Source: Zunongwangia pacifica (GTDB lineage: Bacteria > Bacteroidota > Bacteroidia > Flavobacteriales > Flavobacteriaceae). Taken from it: 63,152 nucleotides of DNA. The position numbers and the translations under genes are program-made. The notes beneath the pieces are model-generated. The model ran no database searches, was not told where the DNA came from, and was given only the letters and a program-made list of their open reading frames with translations. The DNA lies in contig NZ_JAKHSK010000027.1 of the NCBI RefSeq assembly GCF_023499215.1, positions 1 to 63,152 of the forward strand, given 5' to 3'. Numbering within the stretch: position 1 is the stretch's first letter; every line of letters begins with the position of its first letter. This document shows positions 52,022 through 60,928 of this stretch, piece by piece.

Positions 52022-53278
52022 TTAAATTCTAAAAGCCTCTTTTACTTTATCTACATAGTCTAATTTTTCCCAGGTAAATAATTCAACCTCTTTCTTGATT
52101 TCTCCGTTATACGGACTTTTAAAGATCTTGGTTACCTTTTTAGGTTCTTTACCCATGTGGCCGTACGCAGCCGTTTCACGGTAAATAGGATTTCTTAGGT
52201 TTAAGCGCTCTTCAATAGCAAAAGGACGCATATCGAAAATTTCACCTACTTTTTTAGCAATCTCGCCATTGCTCAACTCAACCTTAGAAGTTCCATAAGT
52301 GTCTACAGAGATCGACGTAGGCTCTACTACACCAATAGCATAAGAAACCTGAACCAAAACTTCGTCTGCAACACCGGCAGCAACAAGGTTTTTGGCAATA
52401 TGTCTTGAAGCATACGCTGCAGAGCGGTCTACTTTACTTGGATCTTTTCCAGAAAAAGCCCCACCACCGTGAGCACCTTTACCACCATAGGTATCTACAA
52501 TAATCTTTCTACCAGTCAGCCCGGCATCACCGTGCGGCCCGCCAATAACAAATTTTCCAGTAGGATTTATATGGTATTTAATATTGTTGTTGAATAATTT
52601 CTGAACATATTCAGGGAGCTGAGTAATGACACGTGGCATTAAGATCTCAATAATATCTTTCTTGATTTTAGCCAGCATTTCTTCATCATCTTCCATAAAC
52701 TGGTCATGCTGTGTAGAAAGTACAATGGCTACGATGCGTTGCGGAATATTATCATCGCTATACTCAATAGTCACCTGGCTTTTCGCATCTGGACGTAAAT
52801 AAGGAATTTCCTTTCCTTCACGTCTCAGTTCAGCAAGCTCGTACACCATTTTGTGGGAAATATCTAAAGCCAGAGGCATAAAGTTAGCAGTTTCTGTGGT
52901 AGCATAACCAAACATCATTCCTTGATCACCGGCACCCTGTTCTTCCTTGGTAGCACGATCTACCCCCTGATTAATATCTGGTGACTGCTCATGGATTAAA
53001 GAAATCACGCCACAGGAATCCCCACTAAATTGATAAGCACCTTTAGTGTATCCTATATCGTTAATAACATCACGGGCAATTTGTTGTACGTCCAGATAGG
53101 TGTTAGAACGAACTTCGCCGGCTAATACTACCTGTCCTGTAGTGACTAATGTTTCGCAGGCTACTTTCGATTCTTCATCAAAAGCCAGAAAGTTATCCAA
53201 TAAAGTATCACTAATCTGATCTGCAATCTTATCTGGGTGTCCTTCAGAAACACTTTCTGAAGTAAATAAATAAGCCAT
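52022..53278 (-). CDS. metK: S-adenosylmethionine synthetase
   Basis: 418 residues. It makes SAM from methionine and ATP. Motifs: [20 protein letters not shown], the [12 protein letters not shown] loop, [20 protein letters not shown] and [19 protein letters not shown]. Full length. The 5' UTR carries a SAM-II-type riboswitch core behind a good TTG-N18-TACATTTG promoter, so the gene is probably repressed by its own product. SAM also feeds EgtD and CobA in this window. Confidence 0.97.
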
Positions 53279-53659: not shown

Positions 53660-53692
53660 TTTGGTTAAGAAATATTTTCGCATTTATCTTTG
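53660..53692 (+). promoter_or_regulatory. Promoter of the Met leader / metYZ
   Basis: TTTG (53660-53663), 21 bases, then TATCTTTG (53685-53692), matching the TAnnTTTG box. The transcript would begin near 53697-53700, about 15 bases before the leader-peptide ATG. Confidence 0.75.
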
Positions 53693-53712
53693 TAGCAACA
53701 AAAAGAGAAAAA

Positions 53713-53781
53713 ATGAATTTTATCAATATGATGCGCTTTATGATGATGTGGAGAATTTCCGCAGTGCGCACTATTGCTTAA
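53713..53781 (+). CDS. Methionine-rich leader peptide (22 residues) of a metYZ attenuator
   Basis: ATG at 53713 to TAA at 53779-53781. The peptide begins MNFINMMRFMMMW and continues RISAVRTIA: six of 22 residues are Met, with in-frame ATG codons at 53728, 53731, 53740, 53743 and 53746. It lies just downstream of a strong promoter and upstream of an intrinsic terminator placed before metY. Ribosome stalling at the Met codons under methionine shortage would favour the antiterminator. It shares MNFI, MMW and R-T/S-I with the leader at 57859. No family record is known to me. Confidence 0.8.
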   Translation: MNFINMMRFMMMWRISAVRTIA

Positions 53782-53815
53782 AATTAGAAAATATAATTTG
53801 CAAAAGAGCCGCTGT
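53761..53815 (+). promoter_or_regulatory. Antiterminator fold of the Met attenuator
   Basis: Hand pairing gives a long imperfect hairpin: 53761-53766 with 53810-53815, 53768-53769 with 53808-53809, 53771-53772 with 53805-53806, 53774-53777 with 53800-53803, and 53781-53786 with 53794-53799. It uses the left arm of the terminator, so the two folds exclude each other. A small hairpin TGTGGA/TCCGCA (53747-53763) over the last Met codon could act as the protector stem. Confidence 0.65.
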
Positions 53816-53836
53816 AAAAAACAGCGGCTTTTTTTT
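53807..53836 (+). terminator. Attenuator terminator upstream of metY
   Basis: AGCCGCTGT (53807-53815) and ACAGCGGCT (53821-53829) around AAAAA, then an eight-T run to 53836. It is 25 bases after the leader stop codon and 145 bases before the metY start. Confidence 0.92.
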
Positions 53837-53981
53837 GCGATAAATTGTAATAGTGCAAATTATGATATGTAAAAGCATGATTTGCTATTGTCTAAAACGT
53901 AAAGGTTAATCGAATAAGATCTCCCAGGCAATAGCAAGATAAAAGGGGATCGATCGAATATTAACTATAAAAAGTAAAAAA

Positions 53982-55259
53982 ATGAGTTCAAATAAATTTG
54001 CAACAAACGCTTTACACTTTGGTCACGATGTCGCCAATAATGCAGGTACCCGTGCAGTGCCTATCTACCAGACAACGTCTTATGTTTTTAAGGATTCTGA
54101 TGAGGCCGCCGGCAGATTTTCTCTGGCGCAACCGGGATACATTTATACACGATTAAATAATCCTACTAACGATATTTTAGAGCAACGGCTAGCTGCTTTA
54201 GAAGGAGGAATTGGCGCGGTAGTCACCGCGTCTGGAACAGCTGCTATCAATACCACCTTGTTAACGCTTTTAAAAGCCGGAGATCATATTGTCGCTTCAA
54301 ATAGTTTGTATGGTGGTACTTACAACCTTTTAAGCGTTACACTGCCAAGACTTGGGATTACCACTACTTTTGTGGACCCGTCGAAACCAGAAAATTTTGG
54401 GGAAGCTGTCCGGGAAAATACCAGAGCTATTTTTGCAGAGTCTCTAGGAAACCCCAAATTAGATGTTTTAGACTTAAAAAATATCGCTAAACAAGCCCAG
54501 GCGCATAAAATCCCTTTTATTGTAGACAATACGGTAGCCACTCCTTACTTGTTAAAACCAATTGAATTTGGTGCCAATATCGTCATAGAATCGTTAACCA
54601 AATATATTAGTGGTAACGGAACCTCTTTAGGAGGTGCTATAATCGATGCAGGGACTTTTGACTGGTCGAGTGGAAATTTCCCTGAATTTACCGAACCTTC
54701 ACCAGGATATCATGGCCTAGTATATCATGAGGCCTTAGGCAATGCGGCTTTTATTGCTAAAGTGAGGGTAGAAGGCTTGCGTGATCACGGTGCAGCCTTG
54801 AGTCCGTTTAATGCTTTTCAGATCATACAGGGGCTGGAAACTTTAAAAATAAGAATTAAACAGCATAGTGAAAACGCTTTGGCATTGGCGCAATGGTTGC
54901 AACAACAGGAAGTAGTAACCTGGGTGAATTATCCGGGATTAAGCGATAGTACCTATTACGAGCTGGCAAAAGAGTATTTGCCCGAAGGCCAGAGTGGTAT
55001 CGTTACTTTTGGGGTTAAAGGAGGATATGATGCCGCTAAGATTATAGCAGACGAAACAAAATTATTCTCCTTACTGGCCAATATTGGTGATACCAAATCT
55101 TTAATTATCCATCCTGCCAGTACCACCCATCAGCAACTTGATGACGAAGCTCAAAAATCGACCGGTGTTTCTAAAGATTTAATACGTTTGTCTGTAGGTC
55201 TGGAAGATATCGAGGATTTAAAAGAAGATCTGAAATTGGTATTTTTAAAAATAAAATGA
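53982..55259 (+). CDS. metY: O-acetylhomoserine sulfhydrylase / aminocarboxypropyltransferase
   Basis: 425 residues. A Cys/Met-metabolism PLP enzyme that makes homocysteine directly from O-acetylhomoserine and sulfide. Motifs: YIYTRLNNPTNDILEQRLAALEG, VVTASGTAAINTTLL, VDNTVATPYLLKPIEFGANI, the Schiff-base lysine in ESLTKYISGNGTSLGG, and LGDTKSLIIHPASTTHQQL-type ending. The longer form with an insertion before the C-terminal domain is typical of MetY. It is controlled by the attenuator upstream and would consume sulfide made by the sulfite reductase 4 kb downstream. Confidence 0.93.
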   Translation: MSSNKFATNALHFGHDVANNAGTRAVPIYQTTSYVFKDSDEAAGRFSLAQPGYIYTRLNNPTNDILEQRLAALEGGIGAVVTASGTAAINTTLLTLLKAGDHIVASNSLYGGTYNLLSVTLPRLGITTTFVDPSKPENFGEAVRENTRAIFAESLGNPKLDVLDLKNIAKQAQAHKIPFIVDNTVATPYLLKPIEFGANIVIESLTKYISGNGTSLGGAIIDAGTFDWSSGNFPEFTEPSPGYHGLVYHEALGNAAFIAKVRVEGLRDHGAALSPFNAFQIIQGLETLKIRIKQHSENALALAQWLQQQEVVTWVNYPGLSDSTYYELAKEYLPEGQSGIVTFGVKGGYDAAKIIADETKLFSLLANIGDTKSLIIHPASTTHQQLDDEAQKSTGVSKDLIRLSVGLEDIEDLKEDLKLVFLKIK

Positions 55260-56578: not shown

Positions 56579-56620
56579 TATGGCGAAGTTGAAATATTAA
56601 AATTATTTATCTTCGCCATA
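56579..56620. repeat. Inverted repeat overlapping the Rrf2 start codon
   Basis: TATGGCGAAG (56579-56588) and CTTCGCCATA (56611-56620) are perfect 10-bp arms 22 bases apart; the right arm runs into the ATG. It may be an autoregulatory operator or an mRNA hairpin that hides the start. Confidence 0.55.
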
Positions 56621-57027
56621 TGCTTTCAAAGAAAACAAAATACGGAATTAAAGCCTTAACCTTTATAGCAAGGCAGCCAGAGAGAAATCCTGTGCAAACT
56701 TCAGAAATTGCCAAGAGTGAAAATATCTCGCAAAAGTTTCTGGAAAGTATTCTATTAATACTTAGGAAATCTGGTTTTTTAGGCTCGAAAAAAGGAAAGG
56801 GCGGAGGTTATTATCTTATTAAGGAACCCGAAGATATTAAAATGACAGCGATCATTAGAGTCTTAGAAGGTCCTATAGCAATGGTACCCTGCGTAAGTCT
56901 TAATTATTACGAGAAGTGTGAAGATTGCCCAGAAGAGAAAACCTGCTCTGTCCACAAATTAATGATCCAGGTTCGTGATAGTACTTTAAACGTCCTTGGG
57001 GAAAATACCCTGGCCGATTTGACCTAG
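56620..57027 (+). CDS. Rrf2-family transcriptional regulator with four-cysteine cluster
   Basis: 135 residues. The winged helix is clear: MLSKKTKYGIKALTFIARQP, TSEIAKSENISQKFLESILL and the wing LGSKKGKGGGYYL. The C-terminal loop carries Cys91, Cys100, Cys103 and Cys109 (VPCVSL, EKCEDCPEEKTC). IscR-type members bind [2Fe-2S] through three cysteines; the four here suggest an Fe-S cluster or other metal. Its place directly before cysH and the sulfite reductase argues that it senses sulfur status and controls this operon, like CymR in Bacillus. That is inference. Confidence 0.9.
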   Translation: MLSKKTKYGIKALTFIARQPERNPVQTSEIAKSENISQKFLESILLILRKSGFLGSKKGKGGGYYLIKEPEDIKMTAIIRVLEGPIAMVPCVSLNYYEKCEDCPEEKTCSVHKLMIQVRDSTLNVLGENTLADLT

Positions 57028-57083
57028 GTGTATTTTTTAGAAAATATAAAAATGTTAAAAATCGAAAAATAATCAACAATTTG

Positions 57084-57114
57084 TTGGTGTATAACAAAAT
57101 GAAGATTACTTTTG
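57084..57114 (+). promoter_or_regulatory. cysH promoter
   Basis: TTG (57084-57086), 20 bases, TACTTTTG (57107-57114), a good Bacteroidota-type promoter. The expected start is about 57120, with the inverted repeat at 57121-57143 lying right on top of it. Confidence 0.65.
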
Positions 57115-57120
57115 TGTTAA

Positions 57121-57150
57121 TAACCTACTAAGTCGATAGGTTAATAGGTT
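57121..57150. promoter_or_regulatory. Candidate Rrf2 operator at the cysH start site
   Basis: TAACCTA (57121-57127) is inverted as TAGGTTA (57137-57143), and TAGGTT recurs at 57145-57150. The position over the predicted transcription start suits repression by the Rrf2 protein encoded just upstream. Confidence 0.5.
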
Positions 57151-57195: not shown

Positions 57196-57825
57196 ATGAA
57201 AAGGTATACAGAGAAAGAACTAAAAATCCTTAATCAGCAATTAAAAGGCATAAGCCCTGAAGAAATTATCCAGTGGGTAATTTTAAACAGTAAGCGACCC
57301 GTAGTAACTACTAATTTTAGACCGTACGAGGTAGCCATTTTACATGCAGTTTCAAAAATAAAATCTGATGTTCAGGTGGTTTGGTGTGATACGGGTTACA
57401 ATACTCCGCAAACCTATAAGCATGCTAAAGAAGTGATCGATATCTTAGACCTAAATGTGAAAATTTACATTCCTAAACAAACAGCAGCCTATCGTGATGC
57501 AATGTTTGGGGGCATTCCACAGGTAGATAGTTTAGATCATGATGAGTTTACACGCCAGGTAAAATTAGAGCCTTTTCAAAGAGCCATGAGAGAACAGCAG
57601 CCAGATATCTGGTTTACCAATCTTCGTAAAGGGCAAACTGCTTTTCGCGATAGTATAGATATTCTTAGCTACAGTAAAGATGGTCTTTTAAAAGTAAGTC
57701 CTTTTTATCACTGGAGCGACGAAAAACTGGATCTTTATTTAGAAGAGCACAATCTTCCTAACGAACATAAATATTTTGATCCAACAAAAGTACTGGCCAA
57801 TAGAGAATGCGGTTTACACGCGTAA
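57196..57825 (+). CDS. cysH: Phosphoadenosine phosphosulfate (PAPS) reductase
   Basis: 209 residues from the ATG at 57196; a GTG at 57172 would add 8. It reduces activated sulfate to sulfite. Signatures: PVVTTNFRPYEVAILHAVSK, VVWCDTGYNTPQTYKHA, TNLRKGQTAFRDSID and the C-terminal catalytic RECGLHA. It lacks the paired-cysteine motifs of Fe-S APS reductases (the usual CC...CxxC), which favours PAPS as substrate. The ATP sulfurylase genes cysD/cysN, often next to it in this phylum, are not here. Confidence 0.9.
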   Translation: MKRYTEKELKILNQQLKGISPEEIIQWVILNSKRPVVTTNFRPYEVAILHAVSKIKSDVQVVWCDTGYNTPQTYKHAKEVIDILDLNVKIYIPKQTAAYRDAMFGGIPQVDSLDHDEFTRQVKLEPFQRAMREQQPDIWFTNLRKGQTAFRDSIDILSYSKDGLLKVSPFYHWSDEKLDLYLEEHNLPNEHKYFDPTKVLANRECGLHA

Positions 57826-57858: not shown

Positions 57859-57930
57859 ATGAATTTTATAATCAATACAAAAATGATGTGGTGTAACTCG
57901 ATGTGTTTGCGTAGCATAATATGCACTTAA
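57859..57930 (+). CDS. Met/Cys-rich leader peptide (23 residues) of the sulfite reductase attenuator
   Basis: ATG at 57859 to TAA at 57928-57930, 33 bases after the cysH stop. The peptide begins MNFIINTKMMWCNSMCLRS and ends IICT: four Met and three Cys in 23 residues. The control codons are ATG-ATG-TGG-TGT at 57883-57894 and ATG-TGT at 57901-57906. It aligns with the metY leader at MNFI, N, MMW, S and R-S/T-I. Its last codons and stop form one arm of the antiterminator, the classical arrangement for ribosome-mediated attenuation. Confidence 0.8.
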   Translation: MNFIINTKMMWCNSMCLRSIICT

Positions 57931-57975
57931 AAGTCATAATTGTATTTAGTTATATATAAAGTCCTTTTAAGTGTA
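57922..57975 (+). promoter_or_regulatory. Antiterminator stem of the sulfite reductase attenuator
   Basis: CACTTAAAAG (57924-57933) is perfectly complementary to CTTTTAAGTG (57964-57973); two more pairs (one wobble) extend it to 57922 and 57975. It shares 57964-57968 with the left arm of the terminator, so only one can form. A short GCAT/ATGC hairpin (57914-57924) could be the protector. Confidence 0.78.
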
Positions 57976-57996
57976 AACTAAAAAAGGACTTTTTTT
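57958..57996 (+). terminator. Attenuator terminator upstream of sulfite reductase
   Basis: AAAGTCCTTTT (57958-57968) and AAAAGGACTTT (57982-57992) give an 11-bp stem with a 13-base loop, and the T-run extends to 57996. It lies between cysH and the sulfite reductase start at 58045. Confidence 0.92.
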
Positions 57997-58044: not shown

Positions 58045-60138
58045 ATGCAAAGTTTTAGAACCGAAATTGAAAATCCTGTTGTCGAAAAAGACATCATCGA
58101 TTTAGAAAAGAAAATTCGTCTGTTCCGCGAAGGCAAAGCAGACGAAGAGAAATTCCGAAGCCTGCGTCTTGCGCGTGGAGTTTACGGCCAAAGGCAGGCT
58201 GGTGTACAAATGGTTCGTATAAAACTGCCTTTTGGAAAAGTAACTTCAGAACAATTACATCGTATAGCCGAGGTATCTGATGAATATTCTACCGGAAGAT
58301 TGCATATCACCACCCGTCAGGATATCCAGATTCATTATGTGAGTTTAGATCGTACGCCCGAGCTTTGGGCACAGCTTGAGAAGGATGATATCACACTTCG
58401 TGAAGCTTGCGGGAATACCGTAAGAAACGTAACGGCTTCCCCAACAGCCGGGATAGATGTCGACGAGCCTTTTGATGTGTCGCCTTATGCCGATGCTACC
58501 TTTAGATTTTTTCTGCGGAATCCTATTTGCCAGGAAATGGGGCGTAAATTTAAAATCGCTTTTTCTGCAACAGACGAGGATACGGCACTAAGCTATATTC
58601 ACGATCTGGGCTTTATCCCAAAATTACAGGATGGAAAACGCGGATTTAAAGTGATGCTGGGTGGCGGATTGGGTTCACAGCCACGCCATGCCGATAAATT
58701 ATATGATTTCATTGAAGCCGAAGAAATTATCCCACTTATAGAATCGGTACTTCGAGTTTTTGATCGTCACGGTGAACGTGCAAAGCGATTAAAAGCAAGA
58801 ATGAAGTTCTTAATTAAAGATATTGGTTTAGAAGCTTTTTTAGAATTAGTCGACGAACAGAAAAAAGCTTTATCTCAGGAAAAAGCAGAATTTCACATCG
58901 AAAAATTTGAAGCTGCCCCGCCACTTCAGGATGTAGAGGTTCCTTCAGTAGAGATTGAAGATCAGAAAGACTATGAAGTTTGGAGAAATACCAATGTTAT
59001 TCCGCAGAAACAGGAAGGATTATTTGCTGTAGGAATCCGAGTTCCGTTAGGTGATTTTTATACCGGTGGAGCAAGACAACTGGCCGATTTGATTAAGAAA
59101 TATGCAGGGAATGAAATACGTTTAAGCCTACGTCAGGATATTTTAATTCGCCACGTACGCGAAGCATTTTTACCATTTTTCTATACCGAATTAAAGAAAT
59201 TGGGATATGCAGAAACCGGTTACAACAAAACCGTAGATATCACGGCTTGTCCAGGTACCGATACCTGTAATTTAGGGATCGCCAGTAGTACAGGAATTGC
59301 AGATGTGTTAGAGGATGTTTTAAAAGAAGAATATCCGCAATTCATTAACGGAAAAGATATCACCATTAAAATTAGTGGTTGTATGAATGCCTGCGGGCAG
59401 CATAATATGGCTGAAATTGGTTTCCAGGGAATGTCTATCAAATCGGGTAAAGCGGTAGCACCGGCCTTACAGGTCTTACTTGGTGGAGGTATTTTAGGAA
59501 ATGGAGAAGGCCGTTTTGCGGATAAAGTGGTAAAAGTACCCAGTAAACGTGGCCCTGAAGCATTGCGATTACTGCTAAATGATTTTGATGCAAATGCTGA
59601 AAGTGACGAGAAATTTATTCAATATTACGATCGTCAGGGAAAAACGTATTTCTATGATCTGTTAAAAGATCTGGCAGATACCTCAGATCTTAGTGAGAAT
59701 GATTTTATCGATTGGGGACATGAAAAACCCTACATCAAAGCAGTTGGTGTTGGTGAATGTGCCGGGGTGGTGATCGATCTTATTGCAACCTTACTTTTTG
59801 AAAGTGAAGAAAAAATTGATAACGCACAAAGCGCGATCGATCGCAAAGCATGGTCCGATTCCATTTATCATTCGTATACCTCTATCGTAAATTCAGCAAA
59901 AGCTTTATTGCTTGCAGACGATGTAAAAACCAATACACAGGCAGGGATTATTGCGCAATTTGACGAGTTATTCGTAGAAACCGGTAAAATCGAACTTTCA
60001 ACTTCTTTTAAAGAGTTCACGTATCAATTAAATGAACACGAACCAAGTGAAGAGTTTGCTCATAAATATATCGAAGACGCGCGTTTATTCTTAAAAAGAG
60101 TAGATGCCTATAGAACAAAGGAGGTGCAAGATGTATAA
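58045..60138 (+). CDS. Sulfite (nitrite) reductase hemoprotein with C-terminal HEPN-like domain
   Basis: 697 residues. Two ferredoxin-like/siroheme repeats: LRLARGVYGQRQAGVQMVRIKLPFG with STGRLHITTRQDIQIHYV, and again GVRVPLGDFYTGG with RLSLRQDILIRHV-type sequence. The [4Fe-4S]-siroheme cysteines are Cys402 and Cys408 (TACPGTDTCNLG) and Cys446 and Cys450 (SGCMNACGQH). After about residue 540 come some 150 helical residues (SAIDRKAWSDSIYHSYTSIV, HKYIEDARLFLKRVDAY) that resemble a HEPN domain, an uncommon fusion. Neighbouring cysH and siroheme genes favour sulfite over nitrite. Confidence 0.88.
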   Translation: MQSFRTEIENPVVEKDIIDLEKKIRLFREGKADEEKFRSLRLARGVYGQRQAGVQMVRIKLPFGKVTSEQLHRIAEVSDEYSTGRLHITTRQDIQIHYVSLDRTPELWAQLEKDDITLREACGNTVRNVTASPTAGIDVDEPFDVSPYADATFRFFLRNPICQEMGRKFKIAFSATDEDTALSYIHDLGFIPKLQDGKRGFKVMLGGGLGSQPRHADKLYDFIEAEEIIPLIESVLRVFDRHGERAKRLKARMKFLIKDIGLEAFLELVDEQKKALSQEKAEFHIEKFEAAPPLQDVEVPSVEIEDQKDYEVWRNTNVIPQKQEGLFAVGIRVPLGDFYTGGARQLADLIKKYAGNEIRLSLRQDILIRHVREAFLPFFYTELKKLGYAETGYNKTVDITACPGTDTCNLGIASSTGIADVLEDVLKEEYPQFINGKDITIKISGCMNACGQHNMAEIGFQGMSIKSGKAVAPALQVLLGGGILGNGEGRFADKVVKVPSKRGPEALRLLLNDFDANAESDEKFIQYYDRQGKTYFYDLLKDLADTSDLSENDFIDWGHEKPYIKAVGVGECAGVVIDLIATLLFESEEKIDNAQSAIDRKAWSDSIYHSYTSIVNSAKALLLADDVKTNTQAGIIAQFDELFVETGKIELSTSFKEFTYQLNEHEPSEEFAHKYIEDARLFLKRVDAYRTKEVQDV
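60117..60126 (+). promoter_or_regulatory. Unusually strong Shine-Dalgarno before cobA
   Basis: AAAGGAGGTG ends 4 bases before the cobA ATG at 60131. Most genes here have A-rich leaders without such a site. It decides the start and lies inside the end of the upstream reading frame, so it may secure reinitiation. Confidence 0.75.
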
Positions 60139-60928
60139 TCTACCAAAACTGAGCGTAGTGGGCGCAGGTCCTGGTGATCCAGAACTTATAACATTAAAAG
60201 CGCTTAACACGCTAAAATCGGCTAAAGTAGTGCTTTACGATGCGCTTATTAATCGTGAGTTACTGGAATATGCGCCGCAAGCCGAGCATATTTACGTTGG
60301 AAAACGTAAAAATAAGCATCGTTATTCTCAGGATGAAATCAATGATCTTATTGTGAACTATGCCAATGAACGTGGACATGTAGTGCGACTTAAAGGTGGA
60401 GATCCTTTTATCTTCGGAAGAGGTTCTGAAGAGATTAATTACGCCAAAAGCAAAGGTTTAGATACTGCAGTGGTTTCAGGAATCACTTCATCAATCGCCG
60501 TGCCGGCCAATGTAGGGATTCCGCTTACACAACGCGGAACAGCAGAAAGTTTTTGGGTGATTACCGGAACAACTTCCGCGAGAAAATTATCCAGTGATGT
60601 TTACCTGGCAGCACAATCTACAGCGACAGTAGTTATTTTGATGGGAATGAGTAAGCTTGCTGAAATTGTAAATATTTTCAGTGAATTTGGAAAAGAAGAT
60701 ATGCCGGTAGGGATCATTCAGAATGGTACTACGGTCAATGAACAGTCGGGCTTTGGAACCATAAAAACCATAGAAAAAGTAGTGACTGAAAAGAGTTTAA
60801 CCGCACCCGCAATTATCGTTATTGGCGAGGTGGTGAAAGAAAGTCATCAATTGCCGAAAGAACTAAAAGAAGCAAGCGGATTTTCAGCTTCAGCATATTC
60901 AAAATTTTTGAAAATCGGAGCAGCGTAG
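60131..60928 (+). CDS. cobA: Uroporphyrinogen-III C-methyltransferase
   Basis: 265 residues from the ATG at 60131, which overlaps the sulfite reductase stop by 8 bases. It uses two SAM to make precorrin-2, the siroheme precursor. Motifs: VVGAGPGDPELITLKAL, YVGKRKNKHRYSQDEIN, VVRLKGGDPFIFGRGSEE, VVSGITSSIAVPANVGIPLT and VILMGMSKL. Standard length for the stand-alone enzyme. It makes the cofactor for the preceding gene. Confidence 0.94.
   Translation: MYNLPKLSVVGAGPGDPELITLKALNTLKSAKVVLYDALINRELLEYAPQAEHIYVGKRKNKHRYSQDEINDLIVNYANERGHVVRLKGGDPFIFGRGSEEINYAKSKGLDTAVVSGITSSIAVPANVGIPLTQRGTAESFWVITGTTSARKLSSDVYLAAQSTATVVILMGMSKLAEIVNIFSEFGKEDMPVGIIQNGTTVNEQSGFGTIKTIEKVVTEKSLTAPAIIVIGEVVKESHQLPKELKEASGFSASAYSKFLKIGAA

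Follow-up and report, generated by a model that had tools for sequence, protein, structure and literature searches.

A putative methionine/cysteine leader attenuator ahead of sulfite reductase within a sulfur operon of Bacteroidota

Background

The classic leader attenuators of the trp, his and leu type consist of a leader ORF containing control codons, followed by an antiterminator and a terminator which exclude each other, and the position of the ribosome decides which of the two is formed. Mycobacterial polycysteine leader ORFs have reportedly been described by Canestrari in 2020. Attenuation in general is dealt with in the portions of PMC2965389 and PMC7366714 considered here. For cysteine, a predicted uORF with Cys codons, followed by an intrinsic terminator, lies upstream of cysS in Rhodobacterales (uORFC-8-2, in the relevant part of PMC8632094), and the Cys-rich leaders found in Actinobacteria upstream of cys operons feature a Cys run near the stop codon and no conserved terminator hairpin, according to the portion of PMC1262725 devoted to them. 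In Flavobacterium psychrophilum, strong clues for leader-peptide attenuation before amino-acid biosynthesis operons are given in a section of PMC9723704. The portions of PMC4833913, PMC13236596 and PMC1183508 considered contain nothing contrary to the reading presented below. The literature searched, in which few subscription journals were covered, yielded no report of Met/Cys leaders from Bacteroidota or upstream of sulfite reductase.

The window analysed here is the whole contig of a flavobacterium, 63,152 nucleotides long. Its sequence makes it highly probable that a ribosome-mediated transcription attenuator, located in a sulfur operon and reading the charging of both Met and Cys tRNAs, controls sulfite reductase.

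Results and discussion

Leader, terminator and neighboring genes

The features identified are reported in Table 1. The first-pass annotation had described an ORF of 23 codons with four Met and three Cys between cysH and sulfite reductase; it is present, the four Met including the start codon, with internal Met at positions 9, 10 and 15 and Cys at 12, 16 and 22. These make up 6 of the 22 internal residues (binomial P 1e-5). When both strands of the 63 kb were scanned, 17 pairs of a short ORF and a terminator were obtained, and only the ORFs at 57859 and 53713 were enriched in Met/Cys. The leader/terminator anatomy of the window is real, and chance is an unlikely source of it. The stop codon of the cysH-like gene lies 33 nt upstream of the leader ATG, and the start codon of the sulfite reductase-like gene 48 nt past the last T of the T-run.

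Table 1. Coordinates of the leader region, its neighboring genes and the sister leaders in the window
Feature	Coordinates	Strand	Sequence	Basis or remark
Leader ORF	57859..57930	+	MNFIINTKMMWCNSMCLRSIICT (stop)	Met/Cys-rich ORF similarly placed in 23 loci
Segment 2, antiterminator 5' arm	57922..57933	+	TGCACTTAAAAG	Spans codons 22-23, the stop codon and 3 nt more
Segment 3, antiterminator 3' arm	57964..57975	+	CTTTTAAGTGTA	57964-57968 common to the terminator
Terminator 5' arm	57958..57968	+	AAAGTCCTTTT	3/11 pairs changed on both sides; 0/500 shuffles reach
Terminator 3' arm	57982..57992	+	AAAAGGACTTT	11-bp stem with 57958-57968
T-run	57990..57996	+	seven Ts	Read from sequence
Possible protector hairpin	57903..57926	+	GUGU 57903-57906 (Met15-Cys16 codons) with GCAC 57923-57926	4 bp, RNAalifold; weak
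cysH-like phosphoadenylyl-sulfate reductase	57196..57825	+		NCBIfam PAPS reductase matches below curated cut-offs
Sulfite reductase-like gene (nitrite/sulfite reductase superfamily)	58045..60138	+		Presumed attenuated gene; sulfite/nitrite reductase models, all below cut-offs
Promoter-like sequence upstream of cysH	57084..57114	+	TTG-N-TACTTTTG	Presumed operon promoter; match to the assumed consensus
Sister leader 1	53713..53781	+	MNFINMMRFMMMWRISAVRTIA (stop)	Met, no Cys; before O-acetylhomoserine sulfhydrylase (53982); found in 14/18 loci
Terminator of sister leader 1	53803..53836	+		Sequence
Sister leader 2	53862..53909	+	MICKSMICYCLKRKG (stop)	12-bp antiterminator to hairpin 53918-53951; hairpin here without T-run

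The name sulfite reductase is based on model matches below the cut-offs, together with the genomic context. In the genome collection, the nearest named sulfite reductases are those of Christiangramia, Gramella, Salegentibacter and Gillisia, with up to 88% identity. The ORF which follows (60104-60928) presumably encodes a uroporphyrinogen methyltransferase. NCBIfam curated cut-offs are exceeded by the O-acetylhomoserine sulfhydrylase at 53982 (subfamily model) and by the Rrf2 regulator at 56620. The gene of this Rrf2-family regulator (56620-57142 region) adjoins cysH, and an inverted repeat, AACCTA...TAGGTT, is found at 57122-57142, directly past the presumed cysH promoter, as a possible operator. 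An NCBIfam search with five leader peptides matched no family. Described riboswitches, SAM riboswitches included, were discarded as candidates, since the Rfam covariance models gave 0 matches in the window at gathering scores.

Alternative helices and ribosome position

The antiterminator of 12 pairs claimed in the first-pass annotation does form all of them, one being a G.U pair, and the stretch common to both helices, the 11-bp stem and the T-run, of seven Ts, are located as described there. Its view that the ORF ends where the antiterminator arm begins had to be corrected: the arm instead extends from codon 22 through codon 23 and the stop codon to three bases beyond; a ribosome held at Cys22 would therefore cover segment 2, and a stall at this codon would favour termination. 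The last control codon upstream, Cys16, is placed 15 nt before segment 2. Antiterminator strength was matched by 1 in 2000 dinucleotide shuffles.

Folding was then evaluated for various ribosome positions. With the ribosome on codons 9-16 and the transcript extending to 57980, the antiterminator is predicted with a probability of 0.91-0.98 (0.98 for Cys16), while from codon 22 onward segment 2 is covered. The expectation that RNAfold would give two folds of similar energy did not hold, as the complete free RNA adopts the terminator, with a mean pair probability of 0.92. For a ribosome placed on Cys16, the computed energies are -16.0 kcal/mol for all of the RNA downstream and -14.5 kcal/mol when the transcript stops at 57980 and adopts the antiterminator. 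Every ribosome state computed, stalled ones included, favours the terminator once the RNA is complete (0.85-0.92); the scheme would therefore rely on kinetics, with the antiterminator forming first and lasting long enough. The transcript to 57980 still has an antiterminator probability of 0.59 when no ribosome is present, which means that a strong protector hairpin is missing. The 4-bp 1:2 hairpin proposed by RNAalifold has 95.6% of its cells paired, with covariation within the range of shuffles, so that this possible protector hairpin is statistically too weak to be claimed.

Conservation before sulfite reductase

The regions preceding sulfite reductase were collected from 133 loci (L001-L027, L031-L110 and L111-L136), which include the same or near species from two collections and are to be counted as loci, not as independent events. 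Leaders were recognized in 24 loci, 21 by the automatic scan and three by eye (L043, L044 and L046, whose terminators were not accepted by the scan). One locus, L112, was omitted from all counts because its leader peptide and terminator are identical to those of L034, leaving 23 distinct loci with a Met/Cys-rich ORF and a terminator just before sulfite reductase. They comprise six genomes of the window's genus, three Christiangramia, two each of Gramella, Salegentibacter and Gillisia, three Kordia, a Flavobacteriaceae MAG (L044), the family genomes G293, G138 and G379, and G050, from another family of the order. No leader was found within 450 nt of sulfite reductase in 109 of the 133 loci; L114 and L115 have none, though their sulfite reductases are 83-84% identical. 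Outside the count, a Met/Cys-rich ORF with a terminator was seen by eye 0.8 kb upstream in L022 (G038). The sulfite reductase match of G050 (L027, L029) is split in two, and its first piece contains a stop codon.

Met/Cys enrichment of the 23 ORFs ranges from P 5e-9 to 0.004. Internal Met and Cys are both kept in all of them, for a Met:Cys total of 61:60, and the distance from the last Met/Cys codon to segment 2 is 9-20 nt in 20 loci (range 6-25), segment 2 having been placed differently by two analyses in L034 and L044.

Covariation in relatives, suggested as a check in the first-pass annotation, was evaluated on an alignment of 17 sequences, and was found for one helix only. In the terminator, 97.9% of pair cells are formed and the covariation score is reached by 0 of 500 shuffles. 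The antiterminator has 89.5% of its pair cells formed, compared with at most 55.5% when slid, but within the clade its covariation score is reached by 138 of 500 shuffles and is thus not significant. For this reason, weight was placed on changes between groups. The window's clade pairs CACTTARAAG with CTTTTAAGTG; in Kordia, CAAAAGGA pairs with TCCTTTTG, differently placed relative to the stop codon, and in G050 GAAAGGTT pairs with AGCCTTTC. When single loci are tested against shuffles, the antiterminator is near 5% in L046, L054 and L127, and no better than shuffles in L036 and L044 (749 and 894 of 2000).

A covariance model built on the 17 sequences was used to search 397 family genomes, scoring up to 8 candidates per genome. 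Strong matches (83-121 bits) were obtained in 6 of the 397, all at sulfite reductase, along with a weak one in G379 (31 bits) and another in G124, at sister leader 2 of the sulfhydrylase. A wider regulon was considered and rejected: of ten weak matches inspected (L161-L168, L170, L171), nine resemble ordinary gene-end terminators, and L164 is ambiguous, its terminator following a short ORF whose internal residues include one Met and one Cys.

Position within the operon

Promoters were sought with the consensus TTG-N-TAnnTTTG, which we assume to apply. The full consensus is absent from all 23 loci, both in the 200 nt before the leader and between leader and gene, so that a promoter between leader and sulfite reductase was discarded; a lone TAnnTTTG occurs in L035, between terminator and gene, and in L038, inside the upstream gene. 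An upstream gene ends close by in 19 loci, with its stop codon 4-68 nt before the leader ATG. Taken together, these two results place the leader inside the operon. In addition, only 17-30 nt separate the end of the T-run from the start codon in 8 of the 23, where readthrough of the terminator is the simplest way for the gene to be transcribed. No upstream gene was found in three loci, and in G050 the distance to the nearest one is 699 nt, a stretch that contains another Cys-rich ORF.

The upstream gene of the 19 loci is cysH in 10, by its C-terminus, and in the other 9 presumably cysN, from a C-terminal motif that we take to be diagnostic. In G293, G379 and G138 the gene preceding it is cysD, in agreement with cysN. 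The cysD of the window's genus is on another contig or far away, so that the split there would concern cysH. The gene that would be split off is thus cysH in some genera and cysN in others.

Sister leaders before O-acetylhomoserine sulfhydrylase

The second enriched ORF of the window belongs to a Met leader with its own promoter consensus and terminator (53661-53836). In the upstream regions of 18 sulfhydrylase loci, leader 1 with its terminator was found in 14 (that of L143, with five Ts, was below the scan threshold and added by eye), a SAM-I riboswitch (RF00162) in three, and neither in one. In the three riboswitch loci (L147, L152, L153) no Met leader was detected: the SAM-I riboswitch replaces it, an exchange of sensors. 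Upstream of the sulfhydrylase, L138, L139, L140, L142, L143 and L148 carry a SAM-II riboswitch on the other strand; none reaches the gathering score in the window, where the divergent ORF 52022-53278 resembles, as we take it, an S-adenosylmethionine synthetase.

Unlike the sulfite-reductase leaders, leader 1 has the full promoter consensus upstream in 11 of its 14 loci, at -44 to -53. Segment 2 begins 11-12 nt after the last Met/Cys codon in 13 of 14; in L146 the program chose another segment 2. Segment 2 is mostly GCAGCG or GCAGTG, and becomes GCAAGGGC in L150 and GCAAGGGT in L151, where the terminator arms are changed to match, all three arms shifting together. Leader 1 is followed in seven loci by a second, tandem leader with a terminator. 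The hairpins of sister leader 2 in L142, L143, L146, L148 and L149 do have a T-run.

Internal Met:Cys totals are 65:16 for leaders 1 (n=14) and 52:25 for leaders 2 (n=7), start codons of the latter being chosen by hand. Cys is present in 23/23 sulfite-reductase leaders versus 6/14 leaders 1 (Fisher P 8e-5, relatedness uncorrected). In five genomes of the window's genus in which the two can be paired, the sulfite-reductase leader has 2-3 Met and 2-4 Cys, and leader 1 five Met and no Cys. In three paired genomes from other genera, leader 1 also contains Cys (Met:Cys 4:2, 5:2 and 4:4, against 3:2, 2:3 and 3:4 for sulfite reductase), and here the contrast is slight.

Leaders in other families of the class

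Of the 345 genomes of the class, 83 yielded a sulfite reductase, 76 of them outside the family. From these 76, 60 stretches of up to 5 kb upstream were taken, the first 20 being chosen for family diversity; eight are under 5 kb, and L226 is only 494 bases long. An ORF of 8-60 codons, with a Met/Cys P below 1e-3 and a terminator within 75 nt, was accepted as a leader. This rule selected 41 sense leaders, distributed over 29 of the 60 stretches and 14 of 23 families; applied to the opposite strand of the same stretches, it selected none. Among all 97 sense pairs of ORF and terminator, 37 are enriched in Cys and 13 in Met, while every other residue is enriched in 0 or 1; the 30 reverse-strand pairs gave Cys 0, Met 0, His 2, Ser 1 and Ala 1. 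The full promoter consensus precedes 18 of the 29 first leaders within 150 nt, and at least TAnnTTTG precedes 24, which indicates that most of these leaders stand first in a unit. A P of 0.05 is reached by the antiterminators of 20 of the 41 leaders, and not by those of the other 21.

Two tandem Met/Cys leaders with terminators precede sulfite reductase in L202, L208, L213, L225, L233-L238, L247 and L248; in several tandem cases the final codons of the second leader (RMRK) supply the antiterminator. ORFs with a Cys run at or near their end (e.g. ...LTRSARVSTQATCCCC), after which no terminator was detected, are found in L027 (-329 to -242), L022 (-568), L201 (-2952), L206 (-1694) and L215 (-3715), all positions being relative to sulfite reductase.

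Proposed mechanism

Once past cysH, or past cysN in other genera, RNA polymerase would transcribe the short ORF rich in Met and Cys codons. When charged tRNA-Cys or tRNA-Met is scarce, the ribosome would halt on the Met-Cys codons just before segment 2, which could then pair with segment 3 while segment 4 is yet to be transcribed; the terminator would come too late, and sulfite reductase would be transcribed. When both tRNAs are plentiful, the ribosome reaching the stop codon would cover segment 2, and the 3:4 terminator would end transcription, the upstream gene being made without the siroheme enzyme. The sulfite-reducing enzyme is thus very probably switched on only when Met or Cys is short. 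Met and Cys control codons are cognate to the pathway in which sulfite reductase and O-acetylhomoserine sulfhydrylase act.

The scheme is built on the ORF, the alternative helices, the terminator, their conservation, the spacing and the lack of a nearby promoter consensus, all read from sequence; translation of the ORF, dependence on charging, the size of the effect and an action of Met as well as Cys are presumed in it. The attenuator reading of the first-pass annotation is supported in both structure and logic, since helices, control codons and the place within the operon are conserved across genera.

Alternative explanations

A plain intrinsic terminator, constitutively leaky and lowering sulfite reductase relative to cysH, with an incidental ORF, would explain why the terminator is the best-paired and best-covarying helix, and why it is the equilibrium fold of the complete RNA whatever the ribosome state. 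Such a terminator would leave without explanation a Met/Cys-rich ORF similarly placed in 23 loci, the enrichment before terminators of other families of just Cys and Met, and an antiterminator complementarity kept in several letter versions; it is considered very unlikely. Control coupled to translation or dependent on Rho, as in the mycobacterial polycysteine ORFs, is suggested by the Cys-rich ORFs without a detected terminator found elsewhere upstream of sulfite reductase (the first ORF of L027, L201, L206, L215), but in the window a strong stem and a T-run follow the leader, which makes this highly improbable here. The lowest probability is assigned to a sensor of cysteine or another sulfur compound, bound either by a leader peptide that then halts the ribosome or by an aptamer. 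PHT forms the C-terminus of six of the 23 leader peptides, but this ending is accounted for by segment 2 and, outside Met and Cys, the peptides vary; the window also has no Rfam match at gathering scores.

A sub-form of the preferred reading, in which only the charging of tRNA-Cys is read and the Met codons serve for pairing, through AUG, or for ribosome speed, is unlikely, though far from negligible. It agrees with Cys being the top-enriched residue in other families, 37 cases against 13 for Met, and with the possibility that AUGUG is held by the weak 1:2 pairing; it is opposed by the internal Met accompanying Cys, in nearly equal numbers, in every sulfite-reductase leader, and by the leaders of the window's genus that contain Met but lack Cys and precede a Met gene. 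An attenuator reading both tRNAs remains the best explanation.

With odds slightly better than even, sulfur assimilation in Bacteroidota may be governed by class-wide Met/Cys leader attenuators, often in tandem, with a Met:Cys ratio tuned to the position in the pathway, about 1:1 before sulfide formation and Met-biased before homocysteine formation; in the window's clade and in Kordia, one of them would lie within the operon and part sulfate activation or PAPS reduction from the siroheme enzyme. If so, a large bacterial class would control sulfur amino acids by reading two tRNAs at once, with codon ratios matching the pathway branch, and would provide a natural example of attenuation within an operon, as well as one of a sensor, the SAM-I riboswitch, placed where relatives use another, the Met leader.

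Comparison with known systems

Attenuation of this kind is already known; its Met/Cys form before sulfite reductase appears to be undescribed in the literature searched. As presented in the relevant part of PMC8632094, uORFC-8-2 has two tandem Cys codons and belongs to a tRNA synthetase gene of alpha-proteobacteria, with no sulfate-assimilation gene, whereas the window leader precedes a sulfite reductase-like gene and has dispersed Cys codons. This dispersion, and the presence of a terminator, also set it apart from the mycobacterial polycysteine ORFs as far as these are described in the sources considered, and it does not fit that type. The section of PMC9723704 considered deals with the same bacterial family, and names no Met/Cys leader or sulfite reductase. 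The SAM-I riboswitch precedes the same O-acetylhomoserine sulfhydrylase gene as the Met leader but, unlike it, senses SAM directly. With the trp, his and leu type the window shares a leader ORF with control codons, alternative helices and an intrinsic terminator; it differs in having Met and Cys together, in its place between genes of an operon, and in belonging to Bacteroidota.
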